Below, piece after piece: positions 27,404 to 53,731 of a DNA stretch of 64,000 nt (the first letter of the stretch is position 1; every line of letters begins with the position of its first letter). The translations under genes and the position numbers were made by a program. This DNA is from Laspinema olomoucense D3b (lineage in GTDB: Bacteria; Cyanobacteriota; Cyanobacteriia; Cyanobacteriales; Laspinemataceae): the NCBI RefSeq assembly GCF_025370785.1, contig NZ_JAMXFA010000032.1, positions 1 through 64,000 of the forward strand, in the 5' to 3' direction. The notes below the pieces were generated by a model, which had not been told where the DNA came from, made no database searches, and saw only the letters and a program-made list of their open reading frames with translations.

Positions 27404-30400
27404 TCAATCCCCTGCCTTCTGCTTGAGCACCAGTATGGTGATGTCATCATAAACTTTTTGTTGACCAATATATCCCTTAACATCCGCAATCACCGCTTCT
27501 TGAATTTCATGGGCGGATTTGTGGCAATTTTGCTGGACTACCGCAATTAACCGTTCTAATCCATATTCTTGCTCATCCAGATTCCAAGCTTCTGTAATCC
27601 CATCGGTGTAGAGCACCACCACATCCCCTGGATTTAACTCGATGCGGGCGGTGGAGATAAACTCGGACATTTCTTCCACCATTGCGATGGGAAATCCTAA
27701 ATCAAGGGTATCAATTCGTTCCACTTCCCCGTGCGATCGCACCACCAGCACTTCTTCATGTTGTCCGCTTATTTGCAAAACGCCATCGGCATAATCCAAC
27801 AGCGCTAAAGTCATAGTTTTATCACAACTCATCCGTTGAGCATTTTGATAAACCGTGCGATTCAGGACATCTAAAAAGTGCTGAGGATTAGTAAAATTGC
27901 CTTCCAATAAGGTTCGGACTGCCGTTTGAGCCATAATCATCAACATCCCACTTTCTAACCCATGTCCCGTCACATCCCCGATGCCAATTTTCACCCGGTC
28001 CTGATATTGCAGCACATCATAATAATCCCCACCAACTTCCTCCGCTGGTTCCATAAATCCCGCCATATCTAACCCAGAAACGGCATTAAGTTCCGCCTGT
28101 TTCGGTAAAATCATTTGTTGCAGACGACGGGTGACATCTAACTCCGCTGCCATGCGCAAATTATCCGCTTTGAGGCGATCATTCAGAATAGTAATTTCCT
28201 CATTTGCTTGGGCCAATTCAGCCGTGCGTTCCTCCACTTTTTGTTCCAAAGTGCGGTACAGCAGGGCATTTTCTAGGGAAATAGCAGCTTGAGAGGCTAA
28301 GACTTGCAGGACTTCGAGGCGATCGCTCGTAAAGGCATCGGTGGTTAAGTTATTCTCAAAATACAGAATCCCCGTCAGTTTCCCTTGATGGCGAATTGTT
28401 GTACAAAGTACGGATTTCGGTTGATGGTTCAGAATATAGGGGTCTTGGGTAAACAGTCCTTCCCTTGTGGCATTATTCAACACTACATCAGACTGGGTTT
28501 TGGCTACATAATTGACAATTGCCGAGGAAATATCCTCGCATTCTTCTACGGGAATCGATTGCATGACTATCCTTTCTTCCCCAGAAACCACCGCTGCTTC
28601 AACGGTTAAGCGGTTTTGGGTTTGTAAAATTAAAAAGGCTTTAGAGGCCCCGGCATTTTCTTGGAGAATTTGAATTAACTTTTCCAGCATCTTACTCAGG
28701 ACAATTTCACTGGAAAATGCTTCCGAGGCTTTCATCACCGTAAACAAATCCAAGGAACTGGCGCGACTGCTTCCCGTGGAGGAGTTAACCGTTTGGAACG
28801 AATCAATCTGGGCAGCAGATAGACCCCCTCGGCGTAAAAATTGAAGATATTTATTTTCTAACTGTTGGACCTTGGCATCTGCACCCCATTTTTGGTAATT
28901 ATAGGCCGCTTCTCGGATATAAACTTTGCCCACTTCATCCCACCCTTTCGCAAAATAAAACTGCGCCGCCAGTTCATTGGCGAGGGCTTCATTTTGAATA
29001 AACCCCGATTCTTTTGCCTGGGCGATCGCCTGCCGATAAAGCTCCATTGCCTCCAGTTCTTTACCGGAAATTCGGGCCATTTCCGCCGATACTAACTGGA
29101 ATTTATCCTGATAATTTTCTGGGCAGTTTTCCGCCCAAATTTTGAGCTGCTGCTGCTGTTTTTCCAGAAGAAACCAATACTCCTGTTGCTCCGTTTCCGA
29201 TGCCGTGGGATAAACCGCCGCTAACACCAAGCCATAATAAAAAGGATGTTTTGTTTGGGGGAAAAACCCAAAGTTAGCGGGAACGAGGGGGTCCGCTTCC
29301 CGACAGATGGCGAGGGCTTCCTCATAGCGTTCAAAGGTATATAAAACCTGTGCTTTTAAATAATAGTACCAGTTAACCCCACTAATTAAATTTCCCTCGC
29401 GCCATAACCGCAACCCTTCCACTTCATCAAACTCATTCTCAACCCCCTGTAACTGCTTGATCACGTGGTACAAATTCAGGCCAGCATACACCATACTCTG
29501 ATAATTAGTCTGGCGAATCGTAATCAGAGATTTGTCCGCTTCTTTGACAATTTCTGCCAGATTGTCTCCCATTTCTAACCGCGTCCACAGTCTCAAGAAT
29601 AAAGCCCATACCCCATAAATCACATCCCCCACAGACCGGCAAATGAAGTAAGAGCGATCGTACAGCGCCAGATTGCTACTGAAGGGTTTCCGGTACGGAT
29701 TGACGGCATTACAAAACAAATTAATCACCTTGCCCCCAAAGACGGGAGTTTTGGATTTTTCTAACAGTTTTAACGCCACTACTCCAAATTCATACCCGGT
29801 TTTATAGTGGTTTTGTAGTGCCAGCATCAATCCGTAGGCCGAATAACCAAAAGCCGAGGTTTCTGCATGACCAAAAGTTAAAGAAAGCCGGGTCATTGTT
29901 AACACACACCAGACATTATAATTGATGTAACCCCCGCCAAAGGAAGCTCCCCAAAAGTTAGCGAGGAGGGTCATGCAAACCTGTTTTTCTGGGTCTTCCA
30001 TCGGGGGTCGGTGCAAGAGATCCGCAATATTAACTTCGCTTAAATTGGCTTGCACTTCCTGCATTTGAATGCCGATCGCCCTTTGCAATTCCTCCTCGGT
30101 CTCCGGGACCTCTAACCCCATCAGCTTCATCCCCGCTAATCCCGCTTGTACCGATTCCTGAAATCGCTCTTGGGTAATCGTCAGCAGCACAATTAGGTTG
30201 TAAATTTCCGCCCGGTCAAATTTATCAAGGACGCGCTCTAATAGAATGGTAAATAGCTCGTCTGCCCCTTGAAAATTTCCCGATAAATATTCACATTCTG
30301 CCAGTTCTCGATATACGGTAAAGGTGAGGGAGTAATCTGTATTCCAAGCACTTTCTGGGAACAAAGACCGGGCGATCGCCAAATGCTTGACCGCCGCTTG

Positions 30401-32755
30401 GTAGGCTGTAGAAGCTTTCGCTTTTTTGCCAGCAATCCGATTCAAACGAGCGACTTCTAATTTAAAATCAGGGTCAAAAATTGACTCACTTCCCGCATTC
30501 AAATGGGTCACAATATCAAAAATTTTAGACTCTAACTCTTCCGAACCCGTGTGATTGAGAATTAACTGACCAATCCGTAAGTGAGTCGTGGAACGTTCAG
30601 ATTCAGGAATTAAAGAGTAGGCCGCCTGTTGAACGCGATCGTGCAGAAACTTGTACTCTATACTAAAATCGCTATCTTGCAAAAACGCAGCAGTTTCTTC
30701 GCTACTTTCCGGTAAAAAACTATAATTCTTGCTCGAAAAAATGAATCCTTCCCGCACTGCAGGCCACAAATCCCGGGCGATCGCAATCTGGGACTGTTCC
30801 CGGACCACCCCCAAAGTTTTCAAATCAAAACTATTCCCAATACAAGCAGCTATCTTCAAATTTTCCTGGACCCTCTGCGGAAGTTTCTGAATATTATTAG
30901 TCATTAATTCGACTACATTATCCGTCATTCCCACCGCTTGAATTTGCTCCATTTCCCAGGACCACTCACCCTTGCTCTCCCCCTCTGGAAACCGAAAGGT
31001 TAACAGATGACTGTCATAAAGCGATTTAAGCAACTGGTTTATAAAAAATGGATTACCTTGAGTTTTAGTAGAAATTAACTCTCCCAAAGGTAGACTTTTT
31101 GTCTCCGAACAGTGCAGAGTATCGGCAATCAATTGATTGATATGTTCTAACTTCAGCGGTTGCAGTTCAATCCGATTAATAATAGCTCCCTGTTCCTCCA
31201 TCTCCTCCACTGCCGAGATTAACGGATGAGCCGCATCCACTTCATTATCCCGATAGGCACCAATAATCAGTAAAGCCTGACTTTCCGAAGCCGTTGCTAA
31301 TCGTTGGATCAGTTTCAATGAAGCCAAATCAACCCACTGCAAATCATCCAAAAATACCACGAGGGTATGTTCTTTTTGGGCAAAAACTGCAATAAACTTT
31401 TGAAACAGTAAATTAAATCGGTTTTGGGTTTCCGTTGGCGGCAGTTCAGGAACCAGAGGCTGCACCCCAATCAGTAACTCTAATTCCGGAATCACATCGG
31501 TGATCACCTGTCCTTCTGTTCCTAATGCCTCCATAATCCGCTGTTGCCACCGCGCCAATCGTTCCGGGGTTTCAGTTAAAATTTGCCGAATCAGATTTTG
31601 GAATGCTTGAATCAGGGATTGATAAGGGATATCCCGATTGAATTGGTCAAACTTTCCCGATATAAAATAGCCCCGTTGTTGGGCGATGGGTTTGTGAATT
31701 TCTTGAACAATCACCGATTTACCAATACCCGAAAACCCAGACACTAACATCAGTTCGATTCCCGATGACTTAGGTTCTGAAAAGTCTCCATTTTGGGCCG
31801 TTCCGCTGACTCGTTCAAATGCCGCCATTAAAGCCGCAATTTCCGCTTCTCTACCGTACAATTTCTGGGAAATTTGAAATTTGTCCGAGGTATCCTGTTC
31901 CCCAGGGGTAAACTCATCTATCTGACCCGTTTCTCCCCATTGCCTCCAGCATTTTTCTAAATCATAAATTAACCCATAGGCACTTTGATACCGCTCTTCT
32001 GCCGTTTTTGAGAGCAATTTCATCACAATTGCACTGACAACGGGAGGAATTTCGGGATTAACTTGATGGGGGGGAATCGGTTGTTTAGCAATGTGAGCAT
32101 GAACCATTTCCACCGGGTCCGTCGTGGGAAAAGGAAGCTCCCTGGTGAGCATTTGATAAAAGGTGATTCCCAGAGAATAGAAGTCCGTGCGGTAGTCAAT
32201 GGAGCGATTCATCCGCCCGGTTTGTTCTGGGGACATATAAGCCAGAGTCCCTTCGAGTAAATTGGGATTACTCAAAGTTTGGTGGGAGCGTTCCAGGCGA
32301 GTAGAAATGCCAAAATCGATTAGGGTCACTCGGAATGGATCGAGATTGACTACAATATTTTGGGGTTTAATATCTAAATGAATAATCGATTGTTTATGAA
32401 GTTCTCCCAAACTTTTCGTAATGGAAATGGCAATTTTAAAAAAGTTTTCTAAGTTTATAGTTTGAGTAGACAGCAGTTGCTCCGCTGACAAAGGTCCAGC
32501 ATCTTCCATCGTTAAGACCAGACCCCGACCCCAGCTTTCTAGGTGTAAAGGCTTAACAATGCCGGGGATATTCAAGGGCTTGACAATTTCATATTGATGC
32601 CGGAATTTAGCAAGTTCTGTAGGGGTGGGATATTCAGTTTTTAAGAATTTAAGAATTCCCGTCTGGACTTGGCCTTCCTTCCGACCGCGACAAACAATGG
32701 TATGATTACTTTCGTGAATTTCTTCTAAGATTTCATAACCCGGAAAAGAGAGCAT
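27404..32755 (-). CDS. Giant Ser/Thr kinase-AAA ATPase-GAF-PP2C (SpoIIE-type) signalling protein
   Basis: 1783 residues. N-terminal kinase domain (about 5-265): K36 in GILKFLK, catalytic loop HLDIKPQN (H126, D128; Leu replaces the usual Arg), DFGIS at 147-151, GTLAYMSPEQTGR. Next an AAA/STAND-type ATPase with Walker A GFSGIGKS (340-347) and a Walker B-like LVVFLDDLQWVD, then a long helical repeat region (about 600-1320), GAF (about 1345-1500), coiled coil, and C-terminal PP2C/SpoIIE phosphatase with EVGGDYYDV, GDVTGHGLESG, DGITEA and DDITIL, metal-binding aspartates intact. Having a kinase and a phosphatase in one chain suggests a switchable regulator. The non-RD catalytic loop may mean unusual activation. 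Minus strand, monocistronic. Confidence 0.93.
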   Translation of the reverse strand: MLSFPGYEILEEIHESNHTIVCRGRKEGQVQTGILKFLKTEYPTPTELAKFRHQYEIVKPLNIPGIVKPLHLESWGRGLVLTMEDAGPLSAEQLLSTQTINLENFFKIAISITKSLGELHKQSIIHLDIKPQNIVVNLDPFRVTLIDFGISTRLERSHQTLSNPNLLEGTLAYMSPEQTGRMNRSIDYRTDFYSLGITFYQMLTRELPFPTTDPVEMVHAHIAKQPIPPHQVNPEIPPVVSAIVMKLLSKTAEERYQSAYGLIYDLEKCWRQWGETGQIDEFTPGEQDTSDKFQISQKLYGREAEIAALMAAFERVSGTAQNGDFSEPKSSGIELMLVSGFSGIGKSVIVQEIHKPIAQQRGYFISGKFDQFNRDIPYQSLIQAFQNLIRQILTETPERLARWQQRIMEALGTEGQVITDVIPELELLIGVQPLVPELPPTETQNRFNLLFQKFIAVFAQKEHTLVVFLDDLQWVDLASLKLIQRLATASESQALLIIGAYRDNEVDAAHPLISAVEEMEEQGAIINRIELQPLKLEHINQLIADTLHCSETKSLPLGELISTKTQGNPFFINQLLKSLYDSHLLTFRFPEGESKGEWSWEMEQIQAVGMTDNVVELMTNNIQKLPQRVQENLKIAACIGNSFDLKTLGVVREQSQIAIARDLWPAVREGFIFSSKNYSFLPESSEETAAFLQDSDFSIEYKFLHDRVQQAAYSLIPESERSTTHLRIGQLILNHTGSEELESKIFDIVTHLNAGSESIFDPDFKLEVARLNRIAGKKAKASTAYQAAVKHLAIARSLFPESAWNTDYSLTFTVYRELAECEYLSGNFQGADELFTILLERVLDKFDRAEIYNLIVLLTITQERFQESVQAGLAGMKLMGLEVPETEEELQRAIGIQMQEVQANLSEVNIADLLHRPPMEDPEKQVCMTLLANFWGASFGGGYINYNVWCVLTMTRLSLTFGHAETSAFGYSAYGLMLALQNHYKTGYEFGVVALKLLEKSKTPVFGGKVINLFCNAVNPYRKPFSSNLALYDRSYFICRSVGDVIYGVWALFLRLWTRLEMGDNLAEIVKEADKSLITIRQTNYQSMVYAGLNLYHVIKQLQGVENEFDEVEGLRLWREGNLISGVNWYYYLKAQVLYTFERYEEALAICREADPLVPANFGFFPQTKHPFYYGLVLAAVYPTASETEQQEYWFLLEKQQQQLKIWAENCPENYQDKFQLVSAEMARISGKELEAMELYRQAIAQAKESGFIQNEALANELAAQFYFAKGWDEVGKVYIREAAYNYQKWGADAKVQQLENKYLQFLRRGGLSAAQIDSFQTVNSSTGSSRASSLDLFTVMKASEAFSSEIVLSKMLEKLIQILQENAGASKAFLILQTQNRLTVEAAVVSGEERIVMQSIPVEECEDISSAIVNYVAKTQSDVVLNNATREGLFTQDPYILNHQPKSVLCTTIRHQGKLTGILYFENNLTTDAFTSDRLEVLQVLASQAAISLENALLYRTLEQKVEERTAELAQANEEITILNDRLKADNLRMAAELDVTRRLQQMILPKQAELNAVSGLDMAGFMEPAEEVGGDYYDVLQYQDRVKIGIGDVTGHGLESGMLMIMAQTAVRTLLEGNFTNPQHFLDVLNRTVYQNAQRMSCDKTMTLALLDYADGVLQISGQHEEVLVVRSHGEVERIDTLDLGFPIAMVEEMSEFISTARIELNPGDVVVLYTDGITEAWNLDEQEYGLERLIAVVQQNCHKSAHEIQEAVIADVKGYIGQQKVYDDITILVLKQKAGD

Positions 32756-35351: not shown

Positions 35352-36788
35352 ATGACCAAATCCTTATCCTTGCGGACCATTTGCCATCCCGATCGCCGTT
35401 TACAACTCTGGTGGAATAGCGCCCAAGTGGGACTGTTGTTATTACCCATGAGTCCGTTACTGGGTGGGATGGGTTTGTTGTTGGCCCTGTTTGGCACCTG
35501 GAAACAACGGTACCGGGAAATTCACGAGCGATCGCTCAACCAAGGATTTGCGGTCCTGGCCCTGTGGTTAGTTGTGACAACCGTGTTTGCCACCGATCGC
35601 CTCTCTGCCTTCCTGGGATTATTTAATTTTCTGCCCTTCTTTGCCTTATTTGTCACCTTTAGCCTACTGATCCAGACCCCTGCACAGATGCGGCGAATGG
35701 CTTGGATTGCGATCGCCACCTCGGTCCCGATCGCCGTGATTGGCTGGGGTCAATTATTTTGGGGATGGGCAGGACCCGTCAAATTAGGATTAATCTTAGA
35801 TTGGCGCTTGGATGCCACCGGCGCCCCTCCGGGACGGATGGCATCGGTGTTTGAATATGCCAACGTTTTGGCCAGTTATTTTTTAATGACCTTGATTCTG
35901 GGATTGGGACTCTGGTGTGAGAGTTTTCAGGCATGGCGAACCCTGAAACAACAGCCGAAAAAACCCGAAAAAATCCGCGATCCCCGCGATCCCCGGGTGG
36001 TTAAAACCATTGACCTGTCGGTGACGGGAGAGGAAGAAAAAGTGGGGTGGGGGTTGGTGTTTTTGACCCTGGCGCTATTGGCGAATGCGATCGCCTTGGT
36101 ATTGACTAATTCCCGCAATGGGTGGGCACTGGCTTCTTTTGCGGGGTTGGTGTTTATCCTGTACCAAGGATGGCGTTGGCTGTTGCTGGGGATTCTCGGG
36201 GCCATATCTGCGGTGTTAGGGTCGGCGTTTGGTCCTCACCCCATCCGCCAAGGATTACAGGCGATCGTTCCGGCTTATTTTTGGATGCGAATTACGGACC
36301 AGTTATATCCCGATCGCCCCGTGGCAACCCTCCGCACGACTCAATGGCAATTTGCCTGGGATTTGACTCGCGATCGCCCCATCACCGGGTGGGGTTTACG
36401 AAGCTTTAGCGAACTCTATGAGGCCCAAACTCAAGTCTGGATGGGTCATCCCCATAACCTATTTTTGATGCTGAGTGCAGAAACGGGAATTCCCGGGATG
36501 CTGTTCTTGTGCGGGTTAGTCGGTTGGGTCCTGGCCAAAGGGGTCTTAGCGTTCAAGAATTGGAGCGATCTGCCTTTAGACAGAAATGCTGAGGCGACTG
36601 TCTCTGTCCCTGGGGTACTCACAAACGATCGCTTGATTTTTTTCACCTACCTAGTTACCTTTGCCGGTTGTACCTTATTTCACCTCTTCGATGTCACCCT
36701 CTTTGACTCTCGGGTTAACATTTTGGGATGGTTGATCCTCGCCGCAATTTATGGGGTAGCAGACTCCCGGCGATCGGCGGTTTATTAA
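35352..36788 (+). CDS. O-antigen ligase / Wzy-like (or IctB-like) membrane protein
   Basis: A 478-residue integral membrane protein with about ten hydrophobic segments, for example VGLLLLPMSPLLGGMGLLLAL and AVLALWLVVTTVFATD. The periplasmic loop and HPHNLFLMLSAETGIPGMLF are the hallmark of the Wzy_C/WaaL O-antigen ligase superfamily, which also contains the cyanobacterial IctB group. Family members join or polymerise surface glycans at the plasma membrane; a bicarbonate role has been proposed for IctB but this is uncertain. A cytoplasmic loop rich in charged residues (KKPEKIRDPRDPRVVKT) divides the protein. ATG at 35352. Confidence 0.8.
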   Translation: MTKSLSLRTICHPDRRLQLWWNSAQVGLLLLPMSPLLGGMGLLLALFGTWKQRYREIHERSLNQGFAVLALWLVVTTVFATDRLSAFLGLFNFLPFFALFVTFSLLIQTPAQMRRMAWIAIATSVPIAVIGWGQLFWGWAGPVKLGLILDWRLDATGAPPGRMASVFEYANVLASYFLMTLILGLGLWCESFQAWRTLKQQPKKPEKIRDPRDPRVVKTIDLSVTGEEEKVGWGLVFLTLALLANAIALVLTNSRNGWALASFAGLVFILYQGWRWLLLGILGAISAVLGSAFGPHPIRQGLQAIVPAYFWMRITDQLYPDRPVATLRTTQWQFAWDLTRDRPITGWGLRSFSELYEAQTQVWMGHPHNLFLMLSAETGIPGMLFLCGLVGWVLAKGVLAFKNWSDLPLDRNAEATVSVPGVLTNDRLIFFTYLVTFAGCTLFHLFDVTLFDSRVNILGWLILAAIYGVADSRRSAVY

Positions 36789-38138: not shown

Positions 38139-39377
38139 ATGTTATATCAAATCAACCTCGAACAATTCACAAAAACCCATCTACGAGAACTCGAAATTTT
38201 ATTGACTTGTGCCAGTTCCCAGCCCGAGTCGGAGAAAATAGACTTGCTGAAATCTCTGTTACAAAACCCCATAAACTGGCAGATTCTCCTAAAACTGGCA
38301 AATCGCCATCGCGTCATGCCTCTGGTTTATACCAGTTTGAGCCCTCTAAGCGAGTCCATCCCACCCGCAGCTTTCAAACAGTTAACCCTCGATTTTCGCT
38401 TAAATAGCCGACACAATTTATTATTAAGTGGAGAGTTGTTAAAACTGTTGTTATTGTTGGAGAAAGAAGGAATTAAAAGCCTTCCTTTTAAGGGAGCGAC
38501 CCTGGCCGCATTAGCCTATGGAAACTGTTCCCTGCGTCAGTTTAGCGATTTAGATATTTTGATTCGCGAAAAAGACATTGAAAAAGCCAAAGCGGTATTG
38601 TTGTCCCAGGGATACCGAATGAAAATCGAACGGATTCAACTCACCTCAGAACAAGAAGAGACTTTTTTGCGATCGCGGGATATTTATCATTTCGTTCGCG
38701 AAGCCGCCTATCCCTTCGTGCATCCCCAAAGCCATTTAGTCATCGAACTGCATTGGGCAATCATGCCTAAATATTTTAGTTTTTGTCTTGAAACAGAAGA
38801 CTTTTGGGAGACTCTGGAATCCGTGAGCATTTCCGGACAAGAAGTGCCCACCCTTTCCCCCGAAAGAACCCTCTTCGCCCTGATTGGACATGGCACCAAA
38901 GACTGTTGGAGGCAACTCTCAAGAATTGCCGACATTGCCTACCTGATTCGCAACCATCCTCAGCTAAACTGGGACCAAATTCTCCAGCAAGCTCAGCACC
39001 ACAGAGTCCAGCGAATGCTAGGGCTGGGGTTAAGTTTGGCCTCCGAACTATTGGGAATCGATTTACCCGAAAACATTCAGCAGCAACTGTCGCGCGACCC
39101 CAGCTTGAAGACTCTCCTTCCTGGGGTTTATCAACAATTGTTCGAGCCTCCAGTCAGTTCCATTTCCGATGGGACCCAAACCCGATTTCATCTGCAAGTC
39201 AGAGAACATATCGGCGATCGGCTCAATTATTTTTTCCAAGTGGCAACTACTCCAACTACCTCAGACTGGTTGATGCTGCCTTTATCGGAATTTCCCCAGC
39301 TTCCCTATTACTTTCTGCGCCCTTACCGACTGGTTCGCGAACAAATTGTGAAAGCATTGGAAAAACACAGAAATTAA
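38139..39377 (+). CDS. NTP_transf_5-type nucleotidyltransferase family protein
   Basis: A 412-residue protein of the uncharacterised nucleotidyltransferase family often found in RiPP (lasso-type) clusters. The fold core is visible: FKGATLAALAYGN with K118-G119, then FSDLDILI with the metal-binding pair D137-L-D139, followed by a helical C-terminal region. The active site looks intact, so transfer of a nucleotide or similar group to a peptide or sugar is plausible but unproven. It is the first gene of the cluster after the IS110 remnant. The ATG at 38139 is preceded by an A/C-rich leader. Compare the degenerate paralogue at 44391. Confidence 0.82.
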   Translation: MLYQINLEQFTKTHLRELEILLTCASSQPESEKIDLLKSLLQNPINWQILLKLANRHRVMPLVYTSLSPLSESIPPAAFKQLTLDFRLNSRHNLLLSGELLKLLLLLEKEGIKSLPFKGATLAALAYGNCSLRQFSDLDILIREKDIEKAKAVLLSQGYRMKIERIQLTSEQEETFLRSRDIYHFVREAAYPFVHPQSHLVIELHWAIMPKYFSFCLETEDFWETLESVSISGQEVPTLSPERTLFALIGHGTKDCWRQLSRIADIAYLIRNHPQLNWDQILQQAQHHRVQRMLGLGLSLASELLGIDLPENIQQQLSRDPSLKTLLPGVYQQLFEPPVSSISDGTQTRFHLQVREHIGDRLNYFFQVATTPTTSDWLMLPLSEFPQLPYYFLRPYRLVREQIVKALEKHRN

Positions 39378-39638: not shown

Positions 39639-40091
39639 ATGAAAATAACGCAAAAATATAGAGTCAATAGCCCCAAAGTGGTTCACGAAACCATTGAAGG
39701 AGAAGTGGTAGTGGTCAACTTAGACAAAGGAGACTACTATAGTTTTATGGCAACGGGAGCCGAAATTTGGGAAGGTTTACTGCAAGGAAAACCCACCGAA
39801 CGCGTTTTCCAAGAAATTCTAGAGCGCTACGAAGGAGAACCTAGTCAAATTGAGACTTCCATCCAGGATTTTTTAGCTAAACTAGAGCATGAAGAACTGA
39901 TTGTCCCAGACGCTCGGGGCGCTTTATCGTCAGAAACTATTTCCAATGCTATTGCCGAAAATTTATCCTCAATGCAAAAGCAGCCCTTTGAAATTCCCAC
40001 TCTACAAAAATATACCGATATGGAGGAATTGCTGGCATTAGATCCCATCCATGAAGTTGATGACATGGGATGGCCCAACGTCAAACAGTAA
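39639..40091 (+). CDS. PqqD-like peptide-recognition protein with precursor-like C-terminus
   Basis: A 150-residue protein. Residues 1-90 are a PqqD-type RiPP recognition element: VVVVNLDKGDYYSFMATGAE, then IWEGLLQGKP, then IQDFLAKLEHEELIV. After a Ser-rich linker (91-115) the tail reads FEIPTLQKYTDMEELL (117-132) and ends ALDPIHEVDDMGWPNVKQ. F117, P120, L122 and T126 match the spacing of the lasso leader motif YxxPxLxxYG (with F and T in place of Y and G), so the protein may carry its own leader plus a short core (about 133-150). That reading is inference. It follows the first nucleotidyltransferase by about 260 bp and precedes the kinase-like gene by 10 bp. ATG at 39639. No separate precursor gene was found in the cluster. 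Confidence 0.8.
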   Translation: MKITQKYRVNSPKVVHETIEGEVVVVNLDKGDYYSFMATGAEIWEGLLQGKPTERVFQEILERYEGEPSQIETSIQDFLAKLEHEELIVPDARGALSSETISNAIAENLSSMQKQPFEIPTLQKYTDMEELLALDPIHEVDDMGWPNVKQ

Positions 40092-40101
40092 GCGTAGAAC
40101 T

Positions 40102-41268
40102 GTGAAAACCCGGGGTTTAAAAAGAGATTTAAACCCCAATCCAAAAAATAAAAAGCAGCAAAAGAAAGCGATGGTAATCCCGAAAAAAATAGAGTTAGAA
40201 GCTGCAACATCGAATACGGACCCACAAGCGCCTATAGATTTTTTCAATGCTGTTGGCGAGAAATATAAAACAGCCGAAGTAGCGTCCGAGGGATCTGTAG
40301 AACGATTTTATAACCTAGCGGGACATAAAATCCGCTTGTGTTTTGCGGGTTCCGCTTTAATTCCCTATTTGACGCCAGCATTATCCCATTTAGAAATAGA
40401 AGCGGTTGCCAATCCAGAACTCACCGTGTGTTTGTGGGATAGCGAATCTACGCACACCGCTATGCTACCACCACCGTGGTCAAAAGATTGCTACCATCCC
40501 AAACGCGGCGAAATTATCGGATACAATACCGATCGCATTCATACGAGCTTTCAATGGGGTTCTTATGCCTTAAGCTTACTCGATCGCGATCGCAACTTAG
40601 GGATTTATTGGATATCTACCGTCAAACAAATTCCCTATTGGGAAACGGGTGCTCCCCTGCGAACCATTTTTAACGTTTGGTTGAATCAACGAGAGGTGCA
40701 ACTGGTTCATGCCGGTGCCGTAGGACTTCCCGAAGGCGGCGTTTTGCTTGCTGGAAAAGGCGGATCGGGAAAATCTACCTCTGCCTTAGCTTGTTTAAAT
40801 TCTAACTTGTTTTATGCCAGCGACGATTATTGTTTAATTTCTCCAACACCGACTCCTACCGTATTTAGTCTTTACAATACCGGCAAAAAAAATGCTGATG
40901 ATGTGGAACGGTTGCCGTTTTTAGCCTCTGCCATTCGCAATCGCGATCGCCTCGATACAGAAAAAGCGCTTTACTTTATTCATCAAACCTTTCCCGAGAA
41001 AATTCTCAACCATTTCCCCATCAAAGCCATTTTGATTCCTCGAATTGCCGGAACAAAAGACACTACATTAGAACCCACTTCATCCACCAGTGCCTTAACC
41101 GCACTCGCTCCCAGCACGATGATTCAATTACCCGGTACCGGCAAAGAAGCCTGTCAAATGATGAAAACCGTGGCCGATCGCGTCCCCTGTTACGAATTGC
41201 GAGTCGGTACCGAAATCGAGCAAATTCCCCAAACTATCTTCCAACTTCTCAGCCAAGGAATACATTAA
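40102..41268 (+). CDS. HPr-kinase-like P-loop protein
   Basis: About 388 residues from the GTG at 40102 (ATG at 40171 is an alternative; the open frame extends up to 40051, overlapping the PqqD gene). The C-terminal half has Walker A GKGGSGKST (about 218-226) and ASDDYCLI with D241-D242, matching the HPr kinase/phosphorylase catalytic segment. Such proteins in lasso-type clusters phosphorylate the precursor peptide; here the substrate could be the PqqD tail or a sugar. The N-terminal half (ERFYNLAGHKIRLCFAGSAL) is typical of the stand-alone members. It starts 10 bp after the PqqD gene and ends 5 bp before a glycosyltransferase. Confidence 0.82.
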   Translation: MKTRGLKRDLNPNPKNKKQQKKAMVIPKKIELEAATSNTDPQAPIDFFNAVGEKYKTAEVASEGSVERFYNLAGHKIRLCFAGSALIPYLTPALSHLEIEAVANPELTVCLWDSESTHTAMLPPPWSKDCYHPKRGEIIGYNTDRIHTSFQWGSYALSLLDRDRNLGIYWISTVKQIPYWETGAPLRTIFNVWLNQREVQLVHAGAVGLPEGGVLLAGKGGSGKSTSALACLNSNLFYASDDYCLISPTPTPTVFSLYNTGKKNADDVERLPFLASAIRNRDRLDTEKALYFIHQTFPEKILNHFPIKAILIPRIAGTKDTTLEPTSSTSALTALAPSTMIQLPGTGKEACQMMKTVADRVPCYELRVGTEIEQIPQTIFQLLSQGIH

Positions 41269-41273
41269 AGGTG

Positions 41274-42035
41274 ATGGAAAAATTACCCTTGATTAGCGTT
41301 ATTATTCCCGCCTACAATGCAGAAACTTATCTATCTGATGCGATTGAAAGTGTCTTCGTTCAAGATTATCATTCCCTAGAAATTCTAGTGGTTGATGACG
41401 GCTCCAGCGATCGCACTGCTGAAATTGCCAAGGAGTATGGCGATCGCATTCGCTACATTTATCAAAACAATGCGGGACCTGCTGCGGCTCGCAATGCAGG
41501 CATCAAACTGGCAAAAGGCGAGATTCTTGGGTTTTTAGATGCGGACGATTTATGGTCGGAAAATTGTGTAATCGAGTTAGTCAATGCGTTCCTCGAAAAT
41601 CCGTCTATTCAAATCGCGCAAGGCTTGATTCAAGAACTGCAACTTTTTGACTCTAAATTTGAAAAAACGACGCCAGCCTATCACTATATTAATCTGGGAA
41701 GTGCACTTTATCGCCGAGGCGTTTTCGATAAACTCGGTGGCTTTGATGAAACCATGCGCTATGGCGAAGATGTGGATTTATTCTTGCGAGCTTGGGAAAA
41801 CAATATTCCTAAAAAACTGATAAAAACTGTCAGTTTGTTTTATCGCAAACATCAAGAAAATATGACAGGCGGTAAAGAATTAGTAGAATTGGGGTTTTTG
41901 CGAATTTATAAAAAGCATATTGAGCGCAAACGGCAACGCCAAGACACTTTTGCGAGTTTACCCAAGGAGTTACCTTCCCTGTCGGAATATTTGGGAGTGC
42001 ATCCCAGTCATCCTCGCTTTCAGTCGTTTAATTAA
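41274..42035 (+). CDS. GT2-family glycosyltransferase A
   Basis: A 253-residue GT-A fold enzyme. N-terminal SVIIPAYNAETYLSDAIES, VVDDGSSDRT, NNAGPAAARNAGI, LDADDLW (the metal DxD) and GGFDETMRYGEDVDLFLR give the complete GT2 signature set. Donor and acceptor cannot be read. No membrane segment is seen. GTG at 41271 is an alternative start one codon upstream. It is tightly packed (5 bp after the kinase-like gene, 2 bp before the next glycosyltransferase), consistent with one transcript. Confidence 0.9.
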   Translation: MEKLPLISVIIPAYNAETYLSDAIESVFVQDYHSLEILVVDDGSSDRTAEIAKEYGDRIRYIYQNNAGPAAARNAGIKLAKGEILGFLDADDLWSENCVIELVNAFLENPSIQIAQGLIQELQLFDSKFEKTTPAYHYINLGSALYRRGVFDKLGGFDETMRYGEDVDLFLRAWENNIPKKLIKTVSLFYRKHQENMTGGKELVELGFLRIYKKHIERKRQRQDTFASLPKELPSLSEYLGVHPSHPRFQSFN

Positions 42036-42037
42036 AT

Positions 42038-42745
42038 ATGAATCCAAACTGGCTTATGAATGCTCCAATGGTTAGTGCTATCATCGTGGTCAAAAATGGC
42101 GAACGATATATCGCCAGAGCGATCGACAGTATCATGGCTCAAACCTTTAAAGATTATGAGATTATTGTGGTAGATGGTCACTCTAGCGATCGGACCTTAA
42201 ACATTGCTCAATCCTATCCTCAAGTGCGTTGTGTTCAACAGAAGAAACCGGGAATTGCCGAAGCTTATAACTTGGGAATTGAAAGCGCACGAGGAGAGTT
42301 TATTGCTTTTCTTTCTCATGATGATGTTTGGACTTCCAACAAATTAAGCACTCAGATTAACTATCTGCTTGAACATCCAGAAATCCAATATAGCGTTGCC
42401 AAAGTCAAGTTTATTTTAGAGGAAGGTCATTCGATTCCACCTGGGTTTAAACCAGAACTGTTTGAAGGCGATCGCATTGCTTATATCATGGAAACCTTAG
42501 TCGCTCGCAAATCTCTATTCGATTCCGTGGGGAAATTTAATTCTAATTTTACCATTGCTAATGATGTAGACTGGTTTTCACGAGTCAAAGATCTGAATAT
42601 TTCGGTGATAGCAATCCCGGAAGTGTTTCTTCATAAATATATTCACGATACCAATCTCTCCAACCAAGCTCAGGTCAACAATCAAGATTTATTAAAACTG
42701 CTGAGACAATCGATAGAGCGAAAAAAGCAAAAAGCTGAAGGATAG
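42038..42745 (+). CDS. GT2-family glycosyltransferase B
   Basis: A 235-residue GT2 protein: SAIIVVKNGERYIARAIDSI, VVDGHSSDRT, GIAEAYNLGIESARGEF, and FLSHDDVW in place of the DxD. The acceptor-side ED motif is replaced by TIANDVDWFSRV. It is a variant with His-Asp-Asp and lacks the usual LDADD; still likely active but different in donor handling. It starts 2 bp after glycosyltransferase A, whose stop it nearly touches. Confidence 0.88.
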   Translation: MNPNWLMNAPMVSAIIVVKNGERYIARAIDSIMAQTFKDYEIIVVDGHSSDRTLNIAQSYPQVRCVQQKKPGIAEAYNLGIESARGEFIAFLSHDDVWTSNKLSTQINYLLEHPEIQYSVAKVKFILEEGHSIPPGFKPELFEGDRIAYIMETLVARKSLFDSVGKFNSNFTIANDVDWFSRVKDLNISVIAIPEVFLHKYIHDTNLSNQAQVNNQDLLKLLRQSIERKKQKAEG

Positions 42746-42787
42746 AAAACTGCTGGAAGTGGAAGGCTCGATAATGAGGAGTTGGAA

Positions 42788-43486
42788 ATGAGGGAAAATC
42801 AACCGTTAGTCAGTGTGATCGTGCCAGTTTATAACTGCGATCGCTATTTAAAAGAAGCGATAGAAAGCATTTTGCGCCAAACTCATACTCCTTTTGAAAT
42901 CCTGGCAATCGATGATGGTTCCACTGACAACAGTGCGGCGGTAGCGGGAGAATTTTCCGCATCTATTCAATACTACGCTCAACCCCATCAAGGAGCCGGA
43001 ACCGCTCGCAATTATGGCACTCAACTCGCTAAAGGCAACTATTTAGCCTTTTTAGATGCTGATGATATTTGGGAAGAAAACAAGTTAAATCGTCAATTAG
43101 AAGCTTTTGCGAATAAACCCGAAGTGGATATCGTTTTCGGACAGATGAAAAACTTTCACAGTCCAGAATTGCCTGAAGACGTGAAACAGAAAGTTTACTG
43201 TCCCCCGGAATTAATAGCGGGATATCATCCGGGAACAATGATGATTAAGAAAGAGGCATTTGAGCGCGTGGGATTGTTTGATACTCATTGGAAATTAGGA
43301 GAATTTATTGACTGGTATTTAAAAGCAATGGAGGCGGGATTAAAAAGCGTGATGTTACCGGATCTAGTGCTAAGGCGCAGAATTCATCAAACGAATACGG
43401 GAATCCGCGATCGCGACTTCCGGAAAGATTACGTTCGCATTGTCAAAGCGTCTCTGGATCGGCGTCGCGGGAAAACTCAACCATGA
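42788..43486 (+). CDS. GT2-family glycosyltransferase C
   Basis: A 232-residue GT2 enzyme starting at ATG 42788 (an upstream TTG at 42782 is possible). SVIVPVYNCDRYLKEAIESI, IDDGSTDNS, GAGTARNYGTQ, FLDADDIWEENK and VGLFDTHWKLGEFIDWYL are intact. Its stop codon overlaps the SDR start as ATGA (43483-43486), implying translational coupling. Function by family only: sugar transfer to an unknown acceptor. Confidence 0.9.
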   Translation: MRENQPLVSVIVPVYNCDRYLKEAIESILRQTHTPFEILAIDDGSTDNSAAVAGEFSASIQYYAQPHQGAGTARNYGTQLAKGNYLAFLDADDIWEENKLNRQLEAFANKPEVDIVFGQMKNFHSPELPEDVKQKVYCPPELIAGYHPGTMMIKKEAFERVGLFDTHWKLGEFIDWYLKAMEAGLKSVMLPDLVLRRRIHQTNTGIRDRDFRKDYVRIVKASLDRRRGKTQP

Positions 43487-44367
43487 AATTTAACTTGCAA
43501 AAGCGGTTAAAAGCTGGGGTAAAAGCCTTTGTCAATCCCAGCAAGTTGCAGACGGCCAAATTTCGCGAAGTGCCTCCCGAACCTAGCGTTATTATTAGCG
43601 ATCGCCTGTTAAAGAATAAAAATGTCTTGATTACCGGAGCGGGATATAATATTGGCAGAAGTATTGCGCTGGAAATGGCGCAACAGGGAGCCAATATCTT
43701 TGCCATCGAGCGCAGTCAAGAAAGAGCCGAACAATTACAGCATGAATTAAACCTTTATCCGATTCAGGTTAAATGCTTTATTTTCGATATTTCAGAACAG
43801 GAGAAAATTCTTAATCTGTGTAAGGAGTTAGAAGCTAGTCAGATTAATATCGATATTTTGGTAAATAATGTAGCCCTAAAAATCGATAAAATTGGACTAA
43901 AAAGTTTGAAGTTAGAGGATTGGCACAGCACTTTTAATATTAATGTATTTGAGCCGATGTTTTTAACCCAAGTGATCGCCAATAGAATGCGCGATCGGCA
44001 AACTCAGGGTTCTATTCTGTTTGTCACTTCCATACATCAGTGGGAAATTTCCCGATGGGTGAGCTATAGTGCCTCTAAAGCAGCATTAGGAGCGATCGTG
44101 CAAGAACTTGCCGTAGATTTAGCACCCCATAACATTCGTGTCAACGGAATTGCGCCGGGGTGGATCGCGGAAAACGAAGACGGAACTGCTCTCCCTCACC
44201 CTTACACCGTACTTTATGAACACTCGATTCCCCCCCGTTACATTGGTAGAGCAGCCGTGTATTTAGCCTCGGATTATTTCTCAAAATTTACCACCGGAAC
44301 CATCCTCAAAATTGATGCGGGATTATCATTATATAACTCTCGGGTTTATGAACATCCCCCCCATTAA
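43483..44367 (+). CDS. Short-chain dehydrogenase/reductase
   Basis: A 294-residue SDR. The nucleotide-binding motif VLITGAGYNIGRSIA has the TGxxxxxG pattern, NNVALKIDKIG matches the NNxA segment, SIHQWEISRWVSYSASKAAL gives the catalytic Ser and YxxxK, and NIRVNGIAPGWIA follows. It is a reductase/oxidase of unknown substrate, perhaps a nucleotide-sugar or a peptide-derived group. A 50-residue N-terminal extension (MKFNLQKRLKAGVKAF) is unusual and basic. Its start overlaps the upstream glycosyltransferase stop by 4 bp. Confidence 0.9.
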   Translation: MKFNLQKRLKAGVKAFVNPSKLQTAKFREVPPEPSVIISDRLLKNKNVLITGAGYNIGRSIALEMAQQGANIFAIERSQERAEQLQHELNLYPIQVKCFIFDISEQEKILNLCKELEASQINIDILVNNVALKIDKIGLKSLKLEDWHSTFNINVFEPMFLTQVIANRMRDRQTQGSILFVTSIHQWEISRWVSYSASKAALGAIVQELAVDLAPHNIRVNGIAPGWIAENEDGTALPHPYTVLYEHSIPPRYIGRAAVYLASDYFSKFTTGTILKIDAGLSLYNSRVYEHPPH

Positions 44368-44390: not shown

Positions 44391-45443
44391 ATGCAAGAAC
44401 AAGAACTGCTGGTTTGGGGTCAACCCACCTTAGCACAAAAACGATTGCTGCAAGCGGCGGTTGAAAAAAGTGAAAAGGCGATCGCCTACTGGCAAGAATG
44501 GAGCGAATTAGTCGATATTGAAACACTCGATTCTGAATCGTATCGGTTGCTGCCATTATTATACCGAAATTTATCACAATACGAGATTAGCGATCGCTCC
44601 TTGGTCAAACTCAAAGGCGTGTATCGACGAACGTGGTGTGAAAATCAGCTCATTTTCAAACATTTAACGGAAATCTTACAGCAGTTTAAATCTGCCAGCA
44701 TTCCCAGTTTGTTGATAAAAGATGCAGCGTTATGTTTGCTGCATTATTCCGATATTGGCGAAAGAATGATTAATAACTTTGAGATATTAGTTGGTTCTCA
44801 AGATGCAGTCAAGGCGATGACCCTCCTGGCGAAAATGGGATGGAAATCTAAGAAACCCATAGGCGATCGCCTTTCTCCATCAGATTGCGTCATGGAATTT
44901 ACAAATCAAGCGAATTTGCAATTAATGTTGCGCTGGCATTTATTTTGGGATAACTTTTCCGAAACCCTGGAACGCAGTTTTTGGCATCGCGCTCAAGAAG
45001 TGTCAGTGGGTGACACTTTCACCCAAGTATTGCATCCGAGGGACCAATTATTTTACGTTTGCGTCGGTGGGGGGATCAGAAATCCAGTTTTCCCGTTAGT
45101 GCGACTGGCAGATGCTCATCGAATCCTGGAATCCGATGCCGCTGAAATCGATGGAGATGAATTGTGCGATCGCGCCAACACCTTTCGGTTTTTGCTGCCT
45201 TTTCAAAACTTTATCAACGCATTTGAGGAGATTTTTCAAGTTCCTTTTATCAACTCCACCGTCTCCGCCAGCAAAACTTTACCCATTTCTGCATTTGAAC
45301 AGCAAGAGTGGCATTGCTGGCACGCCAACTCTCGCTCTTTATTTAATCGATTGCAAAATAAATATTTTGTTTATCAAAGAAGATATGGAGCGCCGGAATA
45401 TCAGGTCAATTGGGTAAAGTTTTTAACCACATTAAAGTCTTAA
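44391..45443 (+). CDS. Nucleotidyltransferase-like protein with degenerate active site
   Basis: A 350-residue relative of the first cluster gene. Where the intact enzyme has KGATLAAL and SDLDI, this one has KDAALCLL and NNFEIL (N129, F130, E131), so the metal-binding Asp pair is lost. It is probably a non-catalytic partner or binding subunit of the first protein. The rest of the helical region (MLRWHLFWDNFSETLERSF) is well maintained, so it is not a random decay product. It starts 23 bp after the SDR stop and closes the cluster. Confidence 0.75.
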   Translation: MQEQELLVWGQPTLAQKRLLQAAVEKSEKAIAYWQEWSELVDIETLDSESYRLLPLLYRNLSQYEISDRSLVKLKGVYRRTWCENQLIFKHLTEILQQFKSASIPSLLIKDAALCLLHYSDIGERMINNFEILVGSQDAVKAMTLLAKMGWKSKKPIGDRLSPSDCVMEFTNQANLQLMLRWHLFWDNFSETLERSFWHRAQEVSVGDTFTQVLHPRDQLFYVCVGGGIRNPVFPLVRLADAHRILESDAAEIDGDELCDRANTFRFLLPFQNFINAFEEIFQVPFINSTVSASKTLPISAFEQQEWHCWHANSRSLFNRLQNKYFVYQRRYGAPEYQVNWVKFLTTLKS

Positions 45444-50992: not shown

Positions 50993-53500
50993 ATGTGGCT
51001 AAAGCTCAGAAAGCAAGTTTGGAAATGGCGTGGCGTCTTGATGACGGCCCCCACTGTTGCTGCGATCGTGATTGCTGCCAACACAGCGGGACTCTTTCAA
51101 TTGTTAGAGTGGGCTACGTTAGACCTATTTGTTCGTCACCGTCCCTCCGAACCCACTGACCCTCGAATTGTCATTGTCACCATTGATGAGACAGATATTA
51201 CAAATGTCGGACAATGGCCGATGCCAGACGCGATTTTAGCCCAATTATTAGAAAAAGTGAGCGCTTATGAACCCCGGGTCATGGGCATTGATTTATATCG
51301 GAATTTTCGCGTAGAACCCGGGTCAGAAAGATTACAACAGGTGTTTGAATCGACCCAAAATTTAATTGGGATAGAAAAAGTGGTGGGCAATCCAGTCAAA
51401 GCCCCAAAACTTTTAGAAGATCTTGAACGGGTGGCAATGGCGGATTTGCTCCTAGATCCGGATGGTAAAGTTCGTCGCAGTTTACTCTCCGTGGTTACTG
51501 ACGATGAGGTGACTAAATTAAGTTTATCTGCCCGGATGAGTTTAATGTATTTGGAAGCCGAAGGGATGGCTTTAGAGGCGGTAGACCCAAATAGCTCCCA
51601 ATTGCAATTGGGTAAAGCCCGCTTTATCCCCTTACAAGGAAATGAAGGGGGATATGTCCGGGCTGATACGGGAGGGTATCAAATTTTTCTGAACTATAAG
51701 GGGACAGAAAAGAATTTTAAAACAATCTCAATGACTGATATTTTGAATGATCGGATTCCCCCAGATTTATTCCGCGATCGCCTGGTGTTAGTGGGGGTGA
51801 CCGCTGAGAGCCTGAATGACCTGTTTTTGACCCCCTACAGTGCCTATGGCAACAGTCTAAAGCGAATGCCTGGAGTGGTGATTCATGCTAATGCGATCGC
51901 TCAAATTTTAAGCGCTGCCCTCGATGGTCGTCCCTTCATTCAAGTCTGGTCCGATTCTGTAGAATGGTTCTGGATCACCTTCAATTCCCTGTTTGGGGCC
52001 ACCGTCTCCTATTCCTTGCTCCAAGCTCGAATTTTTAAGAACAATTCGAGCGGGCGATGGGCTATCTTTGCCCTCTGGCTAGTATTGGGGAGTACAGGAG
52101 TTTTAATCACGGGCTATGTTGCTTTTTTAAATAGTTGGTGGGTTCCCATCGTCTCTCCAATGGTGGCTTTAACCACTTCAGCAATCACCATTGCTGGATA
52201 TTATAGCCGGGGACTCCAGCGCGATAGTCAAAGTCAATTGACTCAATTTTTAGAAGCAATGCCGGTGGCGATCGCCGTCCTGGATGCTAAGGGTAAGCCT
52301 TATTATACCAATCAAAAAGCCAAAGAATTATTGGGAAAAGGACCGATAACAACTGCACCAACCCAGCGCTTATCAGAGGTTTATCAAATCTATTTTGTGG
52401 GTAGCGATCGCCCCTATCCTTCGGAACGCTTACCCATCGTGCGCGCACTTCAAGGCGATCGCACCACCGCCGATGATATGGAAATTCACCGCCCTGATGC
52501 CACCATCCCTATAGAAGCCTGGGGAACTCCTATTTATGACGAAAATGGCAATATTTCCTACGCAATGGCTGCCTTTCAAGATATTACCGATCGCAAACAA
52601 GTTGAAGCGGAACGAGAACGCTTTACCAAAGAACTCTTTGAACTCAATCAAAACCTCGAAGATGCCCTCGATGCGGAATTAGAGCTCACCGATGCCTACG
52701 GGCGCTTTGTTCCCCATGAGTTTCTTTATTTTTTAGGCTATGAAAGCATTGTCGAAGTTAAACTCGGGGAAGCAGTCGAAATGGAAATGTCTATTTTATT
52801 CTCGGATATTCGCGATTTTACCACCCTTTCGGAAGGGATGACACCGGAAGATAACTTTAAATTTATTAACTCGTATCTCTCCAGTATGGAACCCGCGATC
52901 GCCGATAATAATGGCTTTATTGATAAATATATTGGCGATGCGATTATGGCTTTATTTAGCGGCAGCGCCGATGATGCCGTCAAAGCCGGAATTACCATGT
53001 TAAATCGACTCACCGAATACAATCAAGGACGAGAACAAAGCGGTTATCTCCCCATTCATATCGGCATTGGTATCAATACAGGTTCCTTAATGCTGGGGAC
53101 CGTTGGCGGACAGAAACGGATGGATAGTACGGTGATTAGTGATGCGGTCAATTTAGCCTCACGGATTGAAGGCTTGACGAAAAATTATGGGGTAGCCTTA
53201 TTAATTGGCGATCGCACCTTTTGCGGATTGAAGGACCCGAATTCCTATAATATCAGACATATTGATCGCGTTCAAGTCAAAGGCAAATCCGAAATTGTCT
53301 CCGTCTATGAAGTCTTTGATGCCGACCCTCCCTCCATCCGCGAGGGCAAATTAATCACCAAAAGCATCTTTGAAGAAGCCATCGAGCTTTACAACAAAGG
53401 CTTATATGCCGAAGCTGCCCGGTTCTTTCAAAAATGTCTCAGAATTAACCCAGAAGATAAAGTTGCCCAAATCTATTTAAAACGCACTCAGTCCCGCTAA
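50993..53500 (+). CDS. CHASE2-PAS-class III adenylate cyclase
   Basis: 835 residues. After an initial helix, a CHASE2 extracytoplasmic sensor (about 40-310: FVRHRPSEPTDPRIVIVTID, FRDRLVLVGVTAESLNDLFL) is followed by three membrane segments (to about 405), a PAS domain (about 415-540), then a class III cyclase catalytic domain (about 590-770: SILFSDIRDF, IDKYIGDAIMALF, DAVNLASRIEGL). Two metal aspartates, the K in DKYIGD and the D/N-R transition-state residues are present, fitting ATP use. A TPR-like tail (LYNKGLYAEAARFFQKCLRI) ends it. It would make cAMP in response to external signals at the plasma membrane. ATG at 50993 (MWLKLRKQ). Confidence 0.92.
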   Translation: MWLKLRKQVWKWRGVLMTAPTVAAIVIAANTAGLFQLLEWATLDLFVRHRPSEPTDPRIVIVTIDETDITNVGQWPMPDAILAQLLEKVSAYEPRVMGIDLYRNFRVEPGSERLQQVFESTQNLIGIEKVVGNPVKAPKLLEDLERVAMADLLLDPDGKVRRSLLSVVTDDEVTKLSLSARMSLMYLEAEGMALEAVDPNSSQLQLGKARFIPLQGNEGGYVRADTGGYQIFLNYKGTEKNFKTISMTDILNDRIPPDLFRDRLVLVGVTAESLNDLFLTPYSAYGNSLKRMPGVVIHANAIAQILSAALDGRPFIQVWSDSVEWFWITFNSLFGATVSYSLLQARIFKNNSSGRWAIFALWLVLGSTGVLITGYVAFLNSWWVPIVSPMVALTTSAITIAGYYSRGLQRDSQSQLTQFLEAMPVAIAVLDAKGKPYYTNQKAKELLGKGPITTAPTQRLSEVYQIYFVGSDRPYPSERLPIVRALQGDRTTADDMEIHRPDATIPIEAWGTPIYDENGNISYAMAAFQDITDRKQVEAERERFTKELFELNQNLEDALDAELELTDAYGRFVPHEFLYFLGYESIVEVKLGEAVEMEMSILFSDIRDFTTLSEGMTPEDNFKFINSYLSSMEPAIADNNGFIDKYIGDAIMALFSGSADDAVKAGITMLNRLTEYNQGREQSGYLPIHIGIGINTGSLMLGTVGGQKRMDSTVISDAVNLASRIEGLTKNYGVALLIGDRTFCGLKDPNSYNIRHIDRVQVKGKSEIVSVYEVFDADPPSIREGKLITKSIFEEAIELYNKGLYAEAARFFQKCLRINPEDKVAQIYLKRTQSR

Positions 53501-53731
53501 TTCCTCAATTTATTCTCTTAAGTTCCTACTCAAAAATTCAGTCAATTGGGTGAACTAATCCCAAAGGTGATATTAAAAACTTCGTCTTTGTGGGACGGGA
53601 AGTGGGGGCTGGGGTGGGATACCTGCACCCTGTAATTTTTGGGTTTTGGGTGAAGTCAAAACAGGATTCTCAAAAAACAGCCAATCCATGTCATAATTTC
53701 ACTGATATGTCCCCTCCTCCCTGGTGGCCTG

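Follow-up and report, generated by a model that had tools for sequence, protein, structure and literature searches.

Can a PqqD-like protein carry the very peptide that it recognizes? The question is raised by a small gene in the 64,000-nucleotide stretch of Laspinema olomoucense DNA analyzed here (the window). The initial annotation described the gene as a PqqD-type recognition domain fused to its own leader- and core-like tail, and proposed a self-presenting precursor. The annotated frame proved to be exact, as the ORF opens with an ATG at 39639 on the + strand and its stop codon ends at 40091 (150 aa), and Pfam recognizes a PqqD domain (PF05402) at residues 22-88 with an E value of 1.1e-13. 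As shown in Table 1, the C-terminal tail, FEIPTLQKYTDMEELLALDPIHEVDDMGWPNVKQ, lies behind the PqqD/RRE domain and a variable linker. Both tail segments quoted in the annotation were found, with the residues AL between them. A PHROGs search was without a match.

Table 1. Coordinates of the tailed PqqD gene, its segments, and neighboring genes in the window
Feature	Position	Strand	Evidence
Whole gene, RRE-linker-leader-like/core-like tail, 150 aa	39639..40091	+	ORF and PF05402
PqqD/RRE domain, residues 8-90 (PF05402 at 22-88)	39660..39908	+	Pfam, AlphaFold2, Foldseek, profiles of TbiB1/PbaB1/TfuB1/LppB
Variable linker, residues 91-116	39909..39986	+	Residues 91-115: entropy 3.39 bits, pN/pS 0.464; low pLDDT at 91-110
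Leader-like segment FEIPTLQKYT, residues 117-126, [FYW]xxPxL	39987..40016	+	[FYW]xxP in 105/111 rows; good pLDDT
Core-like segment DMEELLALDPIHEVDDMGWP, residues 127-146	40017..40076	+	D127, D135, P136, W145 in 111/111 rows, H138 in 107/111; low pLDDT
PF14907 nucleotidyltransferase	38139..39377	+	Pfam, E 3.8e-62
HprK-like kinase	40171..41268	+	Hpr_kinase_C among homologs, HprK structure profiles, PEPCK fold, conserved motifs
Glycosyltransferase family 2	41271..42035	+	PF00535
Glycosyltransferase family 2	42038..42745	+	PF00535
Glycosyltransferase family 2	42782..43486	+	PF00535
Short-chain dehydrogenase (ORF family in 17/81 loci)	43483..44367	+	PF00106
Second PF14907 nucleotidyltransferase	44391..45443	+	Pfam, E 4e-25
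Wzy_C protein, upstream of the PqqD gene	35352-36788		Domain match

Distribution and conservation of the tail

Is this tail common among PqqD-like proteins? The whole protein, used as a query against 388 genomes of the window's class, found 50 places in 44 genomes. A tail profile, applied to 388 genomes drawn likewise, found 17 places in 13 genomes, every one of them in a PqqD-like frame. All 17 lie within the 50 whole-protein places and include the 16 best scores, while the tail profile does not match the remaining 33 places at E <= 0.01, and these align little outside the PqqD domain. The tail defines a subfamily of PqqD-like proteins. In 13 aligned proteins, the window's included, it recurs after a varying linker.

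A scan that covered 84,980 species, with one genome apiece, yielded 351 matching stretches, of which 242 were confirmed. The best 80 of the 242 confirmed loci carry the tail by construction, because the scan used two tail patterns; with the window they make up the 81 loci, or 81 rows, analyzed below. The record titles of these 80 span at least 12 phyla (Cyanobacteria, Chloroflexi, Nitrospirae, Acidobacteria, Brocadiia, Anammoxibacter, Delta-, Gamma-, Beta-, and Alphaproteobacterial names, Lentisphaerae, Verrucomicrobia, Ignavibacteria, Bacteroidetes, Latescibacterota, Bipolaricaulota, and Bacillota), although single taxon assignments may be wrong because most of the loci are from metagenome bins (MAGs). 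The closest relative among the 80 is in Oscillatoria sp. HE19RPO, at 91%, which marks the window as cyanobacterial. Two NCBI lasso-PqqD models match the window's protein, both with scores under the model cut-offs, and one of the two is matched by 80 of the 81 aligned members (E <= 0.001).

Does the tail ever occur alone? No stand-alone tail peptide was found among the 17 matches in the 388 genomes of the window's class, among 16 matches in 12 genomes to which known tail loci had led, among 3 matches in 43 genomes belonging to the same phylum as a MAG titled Bacillota, among 6 matches in 251 Chloroflexi-group genomes, or, apart from a remnant (L181), among 13 matches in 247 Acidobacteria-group genomes. 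L181 is a 22-residue tail remnant between stop codons, with neither a start codon nor a PqqD domain, and is apparently a decayed copy of a tailed gene. Two other Acidobacteria-group matches, L183 and L184, were discarded as chance matches in unrelated long proteins. Apart from the remnant, every convincing tail match is attached to a PqqD-like domain, which was recognized by eye without a family scan in the new matches of the Acidobacteria, Chloroflexi, and Bacillota searches.

One of the clusters (L190) lies on the Crinalium plasmid pCRI9333.04, which is typed as mobilizable and may represent a route of spread. RefSeq annotates genes of matching kinds on this plasmid, under the names PqqD family protein, nucleotidyltransferase family protein, HPr kinase, FkbM methyltransferase, and glycosyltransferase.

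Within the 150-aa protein, constraint is strongest on the tail. In 14 pairs of close relatives, which were picked by the author and use two rows twice, pN/pS is 0.073 for the tail, 0.235 for the RRE, and 0.464 for the linker. The mean column entropy in the 81 rows follows the same order (0.87, 1.96, and 3.39 bits). The initial annotation had expected a conserved tail behind a varying linker if the tail serves as a substrate, and these figures agree with it; the opposite outcome, a tail missing or random in most homologs, did not occur.

The leader-like half and the RRE cleft

The leader-like half of the tail is probably a ligand of the RRE, in cis or between sister molecules. Residue counts were made in a set of 111 rows, which contains one identical pair (L033 and L082) and excludes L181, L183, L184, and 14 repeats. 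A [FYW]xxP sequence occupies positions 117-120 in all rows except L080, L120, L046, L177, L179, and L180, and residue 117 is Phe in 97 of the 111 rows. The comparison with the lasso-type leader YxxPxLxxYG made in the annotation thus stands in the form [FYW]xxPxL, but the lasso-type Gly is absent and the first residue is mostly Phe. According to the available text of PMC13381572, discrete lasso RREs bind the motif [Y/W]xxPx[L/V/I/F/A], and crystal structures exist for two complexes.

The RRE of the window is kin to the leader-binding RREs of lasso and LPP pathways. Its profile matches TbiB1 (E 7.1e-18), PbaB1 (4.9e-14), TfuB1 (1.9e-7), and LppB (5e-6), whose entries are RRE-leader complexes. 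The best Foldseek matches of the model are TbiB1 and TfuB1, both solved with leader peptides, and these alignments cover the RRE only; with an rmsd of 1.0-1.7 A between TbiB1 and the model over this region, the domain has the RRE fold. In the AlphaFold2 prediction (81 sequences, best of five models), the first half of the tail is also placed. The block pLDDT is 84 for residues 111-120 and 82 for 121-130, with a predicted tail strand at 123-125, compared with 55 and 46 for the linker blocks within 91-110, and 56 (131-140) and 51 (141-150) for the distal tail. The leader-like half is therefore predicted to be placed and the distal half to be loose. A counter-case named in the annotation, a tail that folds with the PqqD domain, may thus apply to the leader-like half. 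From the motif, the homology, and the model, I infer that FxxPxL binds the RRE of its own or of a sister chain.

Is the binding pocket retained? The pocket residues were taken from section 8 of PMC13381572, as far as its text was available, and mapped manually; a window number equals the PbaB1 number minus 5 or the LppB number plus 4. Eight positions are kept or conservatively replaced in most of the 111 rows, namely Y39/Y34, L41/F36, I48/I43, L65/I60, Y69/Y64, F83/F78, L87/L82, and L92/L87 (PbaB1/window), while I44/T39, V71/G66, E75/Q70, and Q79/S74 vary. In LppB, D70 forms a hydrogen bond with the leader Tyr (PMC13381572, available text). This residue maps to position 74 of the window's protein, where TbiB1, TfuB1, and LppB have Asp and PbaB1, whose leader has a Trp, has Gln. 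In the tailed family, Ala, Ser, or Gly predominates at position 74, which fits the Phe at 117. D74 occurs in 6 of the 8 rows with Tyr117, in 1 of the 97 with Phe117, and in 1 of the 3 with Trp117 (Fisher p 1.2e-7 for Tyr versus Phe, uncorrected for kinship). On the tree, the coupling is represented by 2 independent pairs on supported branches and by 5 on all branches (sign test p 1), and the pair 117-74 ranks 62nd of 2822 RRE-tail pairs by MI-APC (94 rows). With two independent comparisons on supported branches and such a rank, the coupling is only suggestive.

The core-like half

The distal half is nearly invariant, as four of its residues are the same in every row and H138 in almost every row (Table 1). 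Position 126, at the end of the leader-like segment, has Thr or Ser in 95 of the 111 rows. Since this is short of all rows, the tail offers no universal hydroxyl group to a kinase, and Thr126 was ruled out as a universal phosphorylation site. According to the available text of PMC13381572, the phosphorylated Ser3 of LPP lies 18 residues past the leader Tyr, in the consensus YxxPxVLxHQxIxFETxxS. Counted in the same way, D135 is 18 residues past F117 and matches LPP Ser3 by spacing alone; it is Asp in all 111 rows.

Some tails deviate. L083 and L100 have a second GWP nine residues further downstream, where L093 has DWP. A second type of tail, DMxxLLALDPP(M/I)P...W, is found in L040, L045, L182, and L188 (one row has xML); these four have Tyr at 117 and Asp at 74. 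The two types differ beyond LDP, and both are present in the genomes G120 and G255.

The HprK-like kinase and other partners

Which genes accompany the tailed PqqD gene? In the 81 loci, those cut by contig ends being counted, BLAST-linked ORF families with representatives confirmed by Pfam comprise HprK-like proteins (68 loci), family-2 glycosyltransferases (GT2, 67), PF14907 (58), ABC exporters (22), and dehydrogenases (17). I take the N genes of lasso and LPP clusters to be PF14907 genes and liken the two PF14907 genes of the window to them. A census covered 237 of 258 selected same-strand neighbors in 80 loci, with ORFs of <90 or >800 aa excluded. Short-chain dehydrogenases (14/110), SMP-30/gluconolactonase-like proteins (12/110), and group-1 glycosyltransferases were common, ABC exporters were found in 11/110 and 9-10/127, and radical SAM proteins in 4/127. 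No peptidase family was among the 25 commonest families per set.

A separate search for the kinase subfamily (E <= 1e-20) gave 14 matches, spread over 12 of the 388 genomes. Each of the 12 is also one of the 13 tail genomes, and all 14 matches lie <5 kb from a tailed PqqD gene; in the thirteenth tail genome, G312, the tail is on a contig of 3.3 kb. Hpr_kinase_C was recognized in 49 of 53 kinase homologs (E <= 0.1), the window's member having an E value of 0.0089, below Pfam's cut-off. The kinase profile finds HprK structures (E 1.2e-5), the motifs GKGGSGKS (Walker A) and DD are conserved, and the fold matches of the model (mean pLDDT 93.7) are all PEP carboxykinases among the 50 listed. PEP carboxykinases share the P-loop fold of HprK. 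The product thus has the Walker A motif, the DD motif, and the HprK/PEPCK fold of an HprK-like kinase. Its ORF opens at 40051 in a longer frame, and the start in Table 1 is the author's choice.

Some of these genes are fused. L044, in G255, is a 648-aa frame consisting of a PqqD domain, the tail, a second PqqD-like stretch (recognized by eye), and the kinase, so that the tail is internal; Pfam recognizes the PqqD domain alone. Kinase ORFs of about 600 aa are found in L093, L100, L107, and L109-L112, three of which (L093, L109, and L112) were verified as kinase-GT2 fusions. The same enzyme types act on peptides with a YxxP or WxxP leader in known pathways (PMC13381572, PMC10368454, and PMC8498205, in their available parts). 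There, the RRE protein BsfB1 speeds phosphorylation by BsfK (PMC8498205, PMC10368454), and deletion of LppN left the LPP products unchanged (PMC13381572).

Search for a separate precursor and for processing genes

If the tail is not the substrate, is there another one nearby? In the 81 loci, no separate precursor was found, and the tail profile matches one ORF per locus, which is the PqqD gene; six further matches have E values of 1.7 or worse. The small ORFs considered, 1709 in all, are 20-110 aa long and lie within 6 kb and outside larger genes. Counting recurrence as presence in three or more loci, no recurrent small ORF was found in the 81 loci except groups confined to three sister Oscillatoria contigs. 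The leader motif occurs in 27 of 829 small ORFs on the + strand and in 34 of 880 on the - strand, with no excess on the + strand. The annotation had noticed no separate precursor gene in the window's cluster, and a short precursor gene always standing beside the cluster is likewise missing from the 81 loci.

The lasso B2 protease (PF13471) is absent from the window's genome, and neither a lasso macrolactam cyclase (asparagine-synthetase-like) or protease nor an MsbA-like exporter was found among the 10 neighboring ORFs scanned in the window. Three of the 13 tail genomes have a lasso B2 gene, away from the tail locus as far as the contigs allow; it is on another contig in G336 and >0.8 Mb from the tailed gene in G120 and G197. 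In G197, a tail-less PqqD gene lies about 160 bases behind the B2 gene and the tailed one about 0.9 Mb off, and the tail is therefore not linked to lasso B2 in this genome. An LPP SpI-like peptidase (archaeal-type, TIGR02228) was found above the cut-off in none of the 13 tail genomes. Weaker matches occur in 10 of the 13, and that of G197 is about 10 kb from the tailed gene. A lasso cluster was rejected, as there is no B2 gene in the genome, no cyclase among the 10 neighbors, and no separate precursor at the locus. An ordinary LPP member was rejected too, for lack of a SpI peptidase over the cut-off and of a separate precursor.

Comparison with known systems

Three components of LPP pathways, an RRE, an HprK-like kinase, and an NTP transferase, are present at the window locus. 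LPP (reported in 2026, PMC13381572, available text) also shares with the locus a [Y/W]xxP-type leader motif, and both occur in glycosyltransferase or polysaccharide surroundings; the MsbA-like exporter of LPP has a counterpart in the ABC exporter family of 22 of the 81 tailed loci. As far as that text goes, the differences are as follows. LPP precursors are separate, with a conserved N-terminus and highly variable C termini, whereas the tailed family has a fused and nearly invariant core-like part. LPP has a leader Tyr and a phosphorylated Ser where the tailed family has Phe and, at the counted position, Asp. LPP is restricted to Bacillota, while the tailed family occurs in many phyla, and LPP has the SpI peptidase found over the cut-off in none of the 13 tail genomes.

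The paeninodin, pseudomycoidin, and Bsf pathways (PMC8498205 and PMC10368454, in part) share with the locus a discrete RRE, a kinase (K), a nucleotidyltransferase (N), and YxxPxL, but these pathways to phosphorylated or phosphoglycosylated lasso peptides have B2, a cyclase, and a separate precursor; at the tailed locus, no B2 or separate precursor was found, nor a cyclase among the 10 neighboring ORFs scanned. I file the tailed family as a variant of the LPP/phospho-lasso kind that is a member of neither family. RRE-enzyme fusions resemble the window's protein in having a PF05402/RRE domain with an extra stretch (RRE-Finder, PMC7470986; PMC12710340). The parts of these two papers that were available state that 21% of PF05402 proteins are larger than the discrete size without another Pfam match, and contain no description of an RRE joined to its own leader and core. 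Nor was such a description found in the open-licence PMC literature searched. Borosins (PMC7878506) also bear a core-like part C-terminally on one of their own pathway proteins; their fused domain is a modifying enzyme, in contrast to the recognition domain alone found here.

Possible roles of the tail

What does the tail do? I put at about even the chance that the locus encodes a pathway of LPP/lasso-like type in which recognition domain and precursor form one protein, a single-chain 'RRE plus precursor'. In such a pathway, the C-terminal FxxPxL would bind the cleft of its own RRE like a lasso or LPP leader, and the distal LDPIHEV..GWP would be presented to the HprK-like kinase, the PF14907 nucleotidyltransferases, and the family-2 glycosyltransferases. 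If the paeninodin, pseudomycoidin, Bsf, and LPP pathways are a guide, the tail might be phosphorylated and then glycosylated, and in part of the clusters the ABC exporter could carry the product out. That the distal half may be the substrate is the most economical reading, since the published pathways modify the [Y/W]xxP-leader peptide and no other such peptide was found; the distal tail would then be the part that is modified. Against the fused-precursor pathway also stand the presence of the ABC exporter family in 22 of the 81 loci, the few independent pairs behind the coupling of 117 with 74, and the unchanged LPP products after deletion of LppN. The self-presenting precursor of the initial annotation is upheld in part. 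The conserved tail, the RRE-binding motif in its first half, the lasso/LPP-type RRE, and the lack of a separate precursor in the 81 loci favor it. Its claim on the second half, as a modified or released core, is weakened by the near invariance of this half across many phyla, the lack of a universal Ser/Thr, the failure to find a dedicated leader peptidase, the internal tail of L044, and a locus that is not of the lasso type.

All but the last of these points also suit the main rival reading, a permanent part of the machinery, in which FxxPxL would fill and stabilize the RRE, LDPIHEV..GWP would dock the enzymes, and the true substrate would be a glycan, a lipid, or another protein. The fusions of kinase and GT2, the glycosyltransferase-rich surroundings, and the upstream Wzy_C protein point the same way. 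Since LppB needs its leader to be soluble and about half of the expected NMR peaks are seen with PbaB1 alone (PMC13381572, available text), a built-in ligand would be useful to an RRE. On the other hand, published pathways with these enzyme types modify the [Y/W]xxP peptide, GWP is doubled in L083 and L100, as cores can be, and the two tail types diverge beyond LDP. On balance I lean against this possibility while taking it seriously. The tail might instead be an unrelated extension of an ordinary PqqD chaperone that serves a lasso or LPP cluster with its precursor elsewhere. The likeness of the RRE and the B2 genes elsewhere in 3 of the 13 tail genomes agree with this, but the extension would have to be the most constrained part of the protein and carry an RRE-binding motif, the window's genome lacks B2, no small ORF recurs in the 81 loci beyond the three sister contigs, and a tethered motif would probably compete with a leader acting in trans; this explanation is improbable. 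It is more doubtful still, to the point of being very improbable, that dimers or chains form, with each tail occupying the RRE of a neighboring molecule. The 26-residue linker permits both arrangements, but the single-chain model is already confident for the leader-like segment, and tethering would favor cis.

Apart from the fused-precursor pathway preferred above, an unlikely variant may be mentioned. The tail could be a self-presented carrier arm, an invariant RRE-held peptide, found in many phyla, that bears a phosphate-linked glycan, possibly from Asp135. The kinase, the nucleotidyltransferase, and the family-2 glycosyltransferases would build the glycan on the tail. If true, peptide-borne glycans would be made by way of a carrier protein, and the tail would not be a variable natural product.

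A single product or function is likely because many phyla share one nearly fixed tail sequence. RREs serve to find adjacent RiPP precursors, and such searches would miss a precursor that is fused to the RRE. One small protein would be enough to probe the single product or function. The tailed family connects the phospho-peptide pathways of LPP with glycosyltransferase-rich clusters, and it bears on the roles of the HprK-like kinase and the PF14907 nucleotidyltransferase.

Other genes in the window

The window also contains large signaling genes. A giant protein of 1726 aa (15475-20655) has CBS, GAF, several PAS, and HisKA_2 domains, and another of 1783 aa (27404-32755) has protein kinase, AAA, GAF, and SpoIIE phosphatase domains. 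Three adenylate/guanylate cyclase genes with CHASE2, CHASE4, and PAS sensor domains are clustered at 50993-59112, and a hybrid histidine kinase gene (59096-61912) adjoins them.
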